Positions 39,880-44,290 of a stretch of DNA of 60,424 nt are shown here, piece by piece (the stretch's first letter is position 1; the number at the start of each line of letters is the position of its first letter). Below the pieces are notes generated by a model. That model searched no databases and was not told where the DNA came from. It worked only from the letters and a program-made list of their open reading frames with translations. The stretch covers positions 1-60,424 of the forward strand of contig PAOY01000032.1 in NCBI GenBank assembly GCA_002710135.1, written 5' to 3'. Both the position numbers and the translations under genes were made by a program. Source of the stretch: Dehalococcoidia bacterium (GTDB lineage Bacteria; Chloroflexota; Dehalococcoidia; Lucifugimonadales; Lucifugimonadaceae).

Positions 39880-40923
39880 ATGGATAAAGAAATAAGACTT
39901 ACAAACTTTTCTAGTTGCGGTGGTTGAGCTGGAAAAGCTTCCATAGAAGTACTGGACAGGGTTCTGGGCCAGATAAACAAATCAATTTCGTCAGAAAAAA
40001 TTTTAGTTGATCAAAAAACTAAAGATGATGCAGCTGTTTACAAAATATCTGATGATAAAGCCATTATTTTTACTACTGATTTTTTTGCACCTGTAGTAGA
40101 TGATCCATTTTTATTTGGTCAAATTTCTGCCACAAATGCAATCTCTGATGTTTATGCCATGGGAGGAGATCCTACTCTAGCGCTAAATATATGCTGCTTT
40201 TCGGATAATATTCCTGAAAAATTTATTGAAGAAATAATTAATGGAGGTATATCCAAAGCTAATGAAGCAAATGTAATAATTGCAGGAGGCCATACAATAA
40301 ATGACAAAGAGCCAAAATATGGATTAGCAGTTATTGGAGAAATAAATCCTGAAAAATTAATGAAACTTGATAATGCAAAGCTAAATCAAGATATCATTCT
40401 TACAAAACCTCTTGGGAATGGAATTTTGATAACAGGATCTAAAAATTCAAATATAAATTTAGATGATTATCCTGAAGGAATCTCATATATGCTTGAATTA
40501 AATAAATCAGCTTCCGAAACTGCAAAAGAATTTAACATTAAAGCTTGTACAGATGTAACAGGTTACGGACTTATTGGTCACTTAAAAAACATTCTTAATG
40601 CTAGTAACATTTCTGCTGAACTAAATTTTTCAAATATTCCAATAATTGATGGAATACTTGAAATTTCAAAACCTGAAAATTGGTCATCTGGTGCTATGAA
40701 CAATGAAAAATACTTTAATAAAAATATTATTTGGAATAACTCTATATCTTTATCAGAAAAGATGATTTTATTCGATCCTCAAACTTCAGGGGGCTTATTA
40801 TTTACTGTTGACAGAGATAAATCTGAGGCATTTCAAAAAAAATTATCGGAAAATGAAAATTTAGTTATTAGTAAAATTGGGCAAACAATTAAGAGAATGA
40901 ATCAGGAAATAAAATTTGTTTAA
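39880..40923 (+). CDS. selD: Selenide, water dikinase with in-frame UGA (predicted Sec) at 39925-39927
   Basis: From ATG 39880: MDKEIRLTNFSSCGG-U-AGKASIEVLDRVLGQINKS...DQKTKDDAAVYKI...FFAPVVDDPFLFGQISATNAISDVYAMGGDPTLALNI... Same frame as the truncated track ORF at 40159; CGGUAGK aligns with the SelD catalytic Cys/Sec motif. Confidence 0.92.
39952..39972 (+). promoter_or_regulatory. Candidate bSECIS hairpin of selD
   Basis: CTGG-a-CAG-GGTT-CTG-gg-CCAG: 4 bp + bulge + 3 bp, GGUU apical loop, loop beginning about 32 nt after the UGA. Confidence 0.6.
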
Positions 40924-42306: not shown

Positions 42307-43032
42307 AACAATGTCAATTGAAAAGGAAATATTGTCTATGACAGCTTTATGCTTTTGATTTATTGGTTTTTTTGAATTATTTTTAGATATCAATACAGCA
42401 TCCATCCCTACATTTATAGCACCTAAAATATCTGCAACTGGATTATCTCCAAAATGGATAACATTTTCAGGAATTGTATTTAATCCTTTTAATGTCTCTA
42501 AAAAAATCAATGAGTGAGGTTTTGCAGTTCCTAACTCATTAGATAAAGATAAAGTGTCATAAAGCAATTGGTTTTCAGATAAAAATCTACGATAAACTTT
42601 AGGAGAATTAAATCCTGTATTTGAAATTATTCCTATTTTTAGTTTTTTAGTCCTGCAGAATTCTAACAATTCATATGTACCGTCAAAAATATGAGGAGGA
42701 TTTTCTAAAAATGCTCTATCCAATTCATCGCCTAACGAAATTATTTCCTTTGGCTCTAGTTTATTTATAAGATTTGTATCAATTTTATTAATAAAAATTT
42801 CTAACCAATTTTTAAAAAGTCTATCTGAATGAAATCTTGAAAATACATTTATTTGATAAGTAACAAAATCAAGAGCTAATAATACATCAGAATAATCAAT
42901 GCTATCAGAAAATTTCAATAAATACTCATATGCATAATGCGCCTTGATTTCTCTTCGAGTTTTAGAAAAAGAAGAAAAATCTTTTTCTCCTATAATGGTT
43001 TCCCATAGGTCTAATGTTACTGATTTATTCAT
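42292..43032 (-). CDS. HAD family hydrolase
   Basis: TLDLWETIIGE, LKIGIISNTGF, LGTAKPHSLIFLETL, VIHFGDNPVADILGAINVGMDAVLIS. Confidence 0.85.
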   Translation of the reverse strand: MNKSVTLDLWETIIGEKDFSSFSKTRREIKAHYAYEYLLKFSDSIDYSDVLLALDFVTYQINVFSRFHSDRLFKNWLEIFINKIDTNLINKLEPKEIISLGDELDRAFLENPPHIFDGTYELLEFCRTKKLKIGIISNTGFNSPKVYRRFLSENQLLYDTLSLSNELGTAKPHSLIFLETLKGLNTIPENVIHFGDNPVADILGAINVGMDAVLISKNNSKKPINQKHKAVIDNISFSIDIVSSWI

Positions 43033-43135
43033 AAAATTTAATAAATTTTTAATTCCTTACAAAAACAAAGCTAAAAAACCAAATACTTATAGCAGAAAAA
43101 AACTATCATATTAAAAAAGTATATAAGGCATAAAG

Positions 43136-44290
43136 ATCAAAATAAAAACATTATCTCTTTCTAATTATAGAAATCATAAAAATTCTTCGATAGATCTTCA
43201 GGATGGATTTAATATTTTTTCTGGACTAAACGGACAGGGAAAAAGCAATTTATTTGAGGGTATATATCTTTTATCTATAGCAAAATCTTCTAGGGTTTCA
43301 AACGATAAATTTCTAATTAATAATTCTCTTTTGGATACAGGAGGGCATACTCAAGTATTAGGTATAGCTGAGGAAAAAAATAGAAATATTAAAGCCCAAA
43401 TAGACTATGATATTTCAAAAAATTCAGATTTAGTTAAAACATTTAGAATCAATGGGGTTTTAGTTTCTAATCAAGAATTTGTTGGAAATATTAATTCTGT
43501 ATTTTTTGATACTGATGATATTTCAATAATATCTGGCCCCCCACTTATTAGAAGGAAATATCTAAATATACTTCTAAGTCAGATCAATAACGATCATGTA
43601 AAAAATTTGCAAAGATATCAAAAGGTTTTATATCAAAGAAACAGTTTGCTCAAAAATATTAAGGATGGAAAAAGTAACGAAAAAGAAATTGAGTTTTGGG
43701 ATAATAGATTGTCTGAAGAAGCTGCAAATATTTTCTTTGAAAGAAACAAAATCATAAAAACTATTAAGAATAGTAGTAATGATTTTGCTAAAAATTTTAA
43801 TGAAAAAATTGATCTTAATATTAGATATCTACCAAAGATAGGAAAAAATATAGAAAATAAATTTCTTGAAGAAGAACCAAGTATAGATGAAATAAAACTA
43901 ATATTTTACGAATCTCTCAAAAAAACTCATTCAAGAGATATTGATCAAAGAATAACTACAATTGGTCCGCATAGAGATGATTTTGAAATAATTTTTAATA
44001 ACGCTCCAGCTTCTATAACTGCTTCTAGAGGTCAATCTAGAATAATTTCTTTGTCATTAAAATTATCAGAGGCAAAAGAAATAAGAAATATTACAAATAG
44101 AAAACCTATATTAATTTTGGATGATATTTTTTCAGAATTAGACGAAAAAATGAGAGAAAAAGTTGTAACTGAGATTTTAGATTTTGATCAAATTTTATTA
44201 TCTACTGCAGATATTTCCCTAATAGATAAAAAAAATATTAAAGACGGTAAATATTTCAAAATAAATGATGGAAAAATAGAACCTAATTGA
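43136..44290 (+). CDS. recF: DNA replication/repair protein RecF, with apparent ATC (or ATA 43130) start
   Basis: (I/M)KIKTLSLSNYRNHKNSSIDLQDGFNIFSGLNGQGKSNLFEGIYLLSIAKSSR; C-terminal ILDDIFSELDEKMREK; in-frame TAA at 43124-43126 bounds the 5' end. Track ORF (43331) starts downstream of Walker A. Confidence 0.88.
   Translation: MKIKTLSLSNYRNHKNSSIDLQDGFNIFSGLNGQGKSNLFEGIYLLSIAKSSRVSNDKFLINNSLLDTGGHTQVLGIAEEKNRNIKAQIDYDISKNSDLVKTFRINGVLVSNQEFVGNINSVFFDTDDISIISGPPLIRRKYLNILLSQINNDHVKNLQRYQKVLYQRNSLLKNIKDGKSNEKEIEFWDNRLSEEAANIFFERNKIIKTIKNSSNDFAKNFNEKIDLNIRYLPKIGKNIENKFLEEEPSIDEIKLIFYESLKKTHSRDIDQRITTIGPHRDDFEIIFNNAPASITASRGQSRIISLSLKLSEAKEIRNITNRKPILILDDIFSELDEKMREKVVTEILDFDQILLSTADISLIDKKNIKDGKYFKINDGKIEPN

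Follow-up and report, generated by a model that had tools for sequence, protein, structure and literature searches.

The window analysed here, the whole stretch of 60,424 nucleotides from contig PAOY01000032.1 of a marine, SAR202-type Dehalococcoidia bacterium (Chloroflexota), carries recF on the forward strand at 43136-44290. The gene encodes a complete RecF ATPase of 384 aa when it is read from the ATC codon at 43136-43138, an AUC that the initiator tRNA would be expected to read as fMet, as the comparison of start-codon columns below suggests. Read from there, the protein scores 266 bits against TIGR00611 (cut-off 172) and belongs to RecF by that model, its Walker A motif GLNGQGKSN occupies residues 30-38, and solved RecF structures align with it from query residue 3 (5z67, E 1e-48). 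Direct reading of the 5' end of the frame gives TAA (43124-43126) GGC ATA (43130) AAG ATC (43136-43138) AAA ATA AAA ACA TTA, with the in-frame stop on the forward strand four codons 5' of the start and a Shine-Dalgarno (SD) core, AAGG, at 43125-43128 on the same strand, 7 nt before ATC.

An earlier note on this DNA had found no ATG, GTG or TTG between the stop and Walker A, had placed the AAGG at this same distance from ATC and had warned that the automated ORF loses the ATPase motif, and all of this is borne out. The earliest in-frame ATG, GTG or TTG 3' of the TAA is the TTG at 43331, and a gene finder limited to these three codons would report a truncated ORF of 319 aa (43331-44290, forward strand) that lacks Walker A and scores 205 bits against TIGR00611 in place of 266. 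The 64 codons 5' of this TTG (43139-43330, forward strand), Walker A included, are nevertheless very probably translated, judging by their pN/pS. A gap of this length is not remarkable in itself: recF is AT-rich in this genome, and sampling from its own codons would leave 64 of them free of a canonical start about 31% of the time. The striking point is the combination of a missing start with its conservation.

Upstream of the frame, the hexamer TATCAT (43104-43109, forward strand) is likely the promoter -10 element, which would make the leader short, at about 20 nt. It lies inside TATCATAT, which is invariant in all nine aligned leaders of the genus and is found about 26-30 nt before the recF start. 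A consensus promoter and terminator scan of 42950-43250 returned no full sigma-70 site and nothing else. A search of the leader against Rfam yielded sub-threshold matches only, and therefore no known riboswitch or thermometer in the recF leader.

The start-codon column across Chloroflexota

Several hundred Chloroflexota genomes yielded a RecF. The codon standing 29 residues before Walker A, and 9 ahead of the N in the N[FY]R motif, was read as the start column, with AUA, AUC and AUU taken together as AUH. In most relatives other than those described next, this column holds ATG, GTG or TTG, and CTG in none, and it is therefore the homologous recF start site. A different placement of the start accounts for the other codons seen in this column in 14 genomes, of which almost none belong to the class.

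Within the family the column is AUH in 37 of 37 genomes, the window's own included, and canonical in none. The window genome has ATC, and the eight other species of its genus have ATA (seven) or ATT (one), while the family members outside the genus carry ATC (16), ATT (9) or ATA (3). Beyond the family, AUH occupies the column in 9 of 22 genomes of the order and in 13 of 87 of the class outside the order, where GTG (34), ATG (21) and TTG (19) are found as well; it is absent from all 86 genomes of the phylum outside the class. In 27 of the 37 family genomes, moreover, the frame contains no ATG, GTG or TTG between its preceding stop and codon +15. Taken together, these comparisons strongly support initiation of recF translation at an AUH codon, which in the window would be AUC 43136.

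Two further observations were made in the same survey. Several complete genomes of 1.4-1.9 Mb in one family of the class (f38, e.g. G072, G107 and G125) yielded no RecF at a threshold of E 1e-30, which suggests that the gene may have been lost from them. In three other families of the class (f44, f57 and f58, e.g. L091, L094 and L202), many recFs that start with GTG or ATG and have no SD carry a TATAAT-like hexamer some 6-12 nt upstream of the start. A hexamer resembling a -10 element at such short distance was counted in 14 of 86 canonical recFs versus 0 of 21 with AUH (Fisher p = 0.067), which is only suggestive of canonical-start recFs being often leaderless in part of the class.

Apparent selection on the start codon and competing readings

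A RecF tree built from 230 genomes requires at least 10 changes of the start between AUH and canonical codons. Among AUH recFs it shows a minimum of 17 changes of the third base, none of them to G. In the family this base tracks GC content, with ATA or ATT at low GC3 and ATC at high, over a range of recF GC3 from 0.13 to 0.81 across the 37 genomes. All 11 invariant fourfold columns of the family recF have G in 3-11 of the 37 genomes, whereas the start codon has it in none. With a mean fourfold G frequency of 0.22, the chance of seeing no G in 17 changes is about 0.014, a crude figure, and AUG therefore seems to be selected against at the recF start, by a test that becomes modest once corrected for relatedness.

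An SD-like core stands 5-9 nt upstream of the start in 57 of 59 AUH recFs. Outside the family, the median anti-SD duplex is -9.8 kcal/mol for AUH recFs versus -5.0 for ATG, -2.6 for GTG and -6.4 for TTG, and all 21 AUH recFs there pair at -5.7 kcal/mol or better. The difference between AUH and canonical starts is large when genomes are treated as independent and not corrected for relatedness (Mann-Whitney p = 8e-10); in tree-based tests of AUH with a strong SD by independent pairs, the supported pairs were too few to reach significance. The SD of the window genus is moderate, at -2.7 to -4.0 kcal/mol, and weaker than that of other AUH recFs.

These data bear most directly on the strongest of the competing readings, namely that the AUH start is real but purposeless, a weak start that was tolerated, became fixed through drift and was then inherited. 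GTG or TTG is common in the other recFs of the class, so that a weak start may well suffice for this gene. Yet AUG is a single mutation away and the codon has stayed AUH in 37 genomes spanning that whole range of GC3 through many third-base changes, and the repeated gain or loss of AUH on the tree, together with its company of strong SDs outside the family, speaks against drift; we consider this reading improbable, though it keeps more weight than any other alternative.

It could also be asked whether translation begins elsewhere, at another non-canonical codon or in an upstream frame through coupling or frameshifting from an upstream ORF, such that the isoleucine codon is internal. The earlier note had left the choice between ATC 43136 and ATA 43130 undecided, and the latter does fall within a short open stretch upstream, just as in-frame canonical codons occur further 5' in a few relatives. 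Only ATC stands up, since ATA 43130 is 1 nt from the SD, which is too close, and is not conserved. In two genomes (G015 and G021) the ATT or ATC follows immediately after a stop codon, and stops lie one or two codons before AUH in eight AUH genomes; the SD spacing suits the AUH codon in nearly every case, and it is exactly in this column that most non-AUH relatives place their canonical start. Translational coupling fails as a general explanation: in the genus the gene upstream of recF is divergently oriented, elsewhere several AUH recFs are closely preceded by an ORF on their own strand, and no single arrangement covers both. A start elsewhere is accordingly very unlikely.

The two remaining alternatives retain next to no probability. 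A point error at the start codon, the other option raised in the earlier note, or a fresh ATG to ATC mutation confined to this genome might be imagined for an assembly that is 64.9% complete and in 35 contigs, but it is refuted by relatives: an ATG differing by a single base was looked for and is absent in all eight other species of the genus, whose assemblies were deposited separately (e.g. NAT118, OSU_BB06, TMED70 and H12BWF), and the 28 further family genomes are AUH too. Equally negligible is the notion that the protein from TTG 43331 is alone made while the N-terminal part decays, for although a canonical codon is present there, the product would lack Walker A, other family members have no canonical codon near that position, and codons 2-64 show pN/pS of 0.02-0.19 in nine species pairs, similar to the remainder of the gene, and are under strong purifying selection.

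infC and other genes with AUH starts

How unusual such a start is within the genome was gauged by comparing genes in the genus, using the window, some 360 kb of other contigs of the same genome and 200 kb from each of two relatives, which gave 139 orthologous clusters. Apart from selD, which was flagged because a Sec UGA interrupts its frame, recF and infC are the only two whose conserved N-terminus cannot be reached from any canonical codon. Most of the flagged pairs could be put down to selD, to antisense shadows or to chance 5' matches that end where a canonical start lies. For recF this goes with the conserved AUH column, a third base that is never G in the family and the SD spacing; the control recR frames in the genus have a nearby ATG on offer. 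All nine genomes of the genus start infC with AUA, and most of the related infC loci that were read are compatible with an AUH start, whether AUA or another (L125-L154 in both cases).

The selD gene (selenide, water dikinase; 39880-40923, forward strand; TIGR00476, 327 bits) has an in-frame UGA at 39925-39927, and the same TGA is found in a second genome (G002). Its automated ORF starts late, at 40159. Because the UGA falls in the active-site motif SCGG-U-AGK, SelD is probably itself a selenoprotein.

The AUH start of infC is the classical textbook example of a start controlled by IF3. The likeness to recF is close, as both combine AUH and a normally spaced SD with a variable third base and conservation over large groups, and infC occurs as AUA in the very genomes that have an AUH recF. 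However, infC (AUU, AUC or AUA) encodes the rejecting factor itself and is autoregulated in translation by direct feedback, whereas RecF is a repair ATPase on which any control by IF3 would be one-way.

Chromosomal AUH starts are otherwise extremely rare; in one reconstruction of ancestral AUG starts, a single switch to AUU was recorded among 61,358 (PMC5622118). The AUU start of E. coli pcnB (Binns and Masters 2002, as cited in PMC13009471) offers a non-translation gene kept low, as proposed here for recF, though in a different gene of a distant group. In Streptomyces, the GTC start of sigR is conserved, has a strong SD, limits a protein that is harmful in excess and is misannotated in databases (PMC5472188); it differs in being GUC and not AUH, and in serving a sigma factor that is paired with an anti-sigma factor. 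The AUH starts of Staphylococcus aureus cvfC1 (AUU), ccpN (AUA) and citZ (AUA) have an extended SD and yield roughly 10-30% of AUG output, and those of cvfC1 and ccpN are conserved in relatives, as in recF (PMC13009471). These are unrelated genes of Bacillota, established by Ribo-seq, while the recF start is supported by sequence comparison. Among the open-access papers searched, none described recF as starting with AUH. With AUH starts already known for infC, pcnB, ccpN and cvfC1, recF would add a further gene, in which the codon is conserved over a whole bacterial family.

A proposed model for scarce RecF and its implications

We propose that the intact recF starts at AUC 43136, placed there by the AAGG, and that weak initiation subject to discrimination by IF3 keeps RecF low, a reading that we hold to be likely. 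The AAGG 7 nt upstream would position the ribosome at the AUC, where fMet-tRNA would pair with the first two bases of the AUH codon only. IF3 would then reject most of these initiation complexes and the SD would let a minority through, such that RecF output would be low, sensitive to IF3 and a fraction of that expected from AUG. Of the two options in the earlier note, the non-AUG start is supported and extends to the whole family, while its regulatory purpose, to keep RecF scarce through low-level translation, is probable and still a matter of inference.

Precedents for such a purpose come from other bacteria. E. coli has about 50 RecF molecules per cell, and an excess of roughly 14-fold reduces survival by one log, an effect that depends on the ATPase (PMC10287930). 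The likely motive for low RecF would be that excess destabilises replisomes, a result from E. coli whose extension to SAR202 bacteria is an extrapolation. The Streptomyces sigR start, for its part, is repressed by IF3, and the gene becomes harmful once given a canonical codon (PMC5472188), and the output quoted above for S. aureus AUH starts indicates the range that might be expected (PMC13009471).

That a core repair gene has AUH throughout a family suggests that scarce RecF is selected for, and the family offers a natural test of whether RecF has to be limited, an idea derived from E. coli. For genome annotation, gene finders limited to ATG, GTG and TTG would shorten recF or misplace its start in SAR202-type bacteria, losing the ATPase motif. 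More tentatively, and with the balance somewhat against it, recF may be the second widely conserved gene after infC with an AUH start controlled by IF3, both in this family and, as separate cases, in several further lineages of Dehalococcoidia type, with the level of RecF following the state of the translation machinery. Were that the case, gap repair and replisome stability in these bacteria would, through the level of RecF, follow the state of the translation machinery as well.
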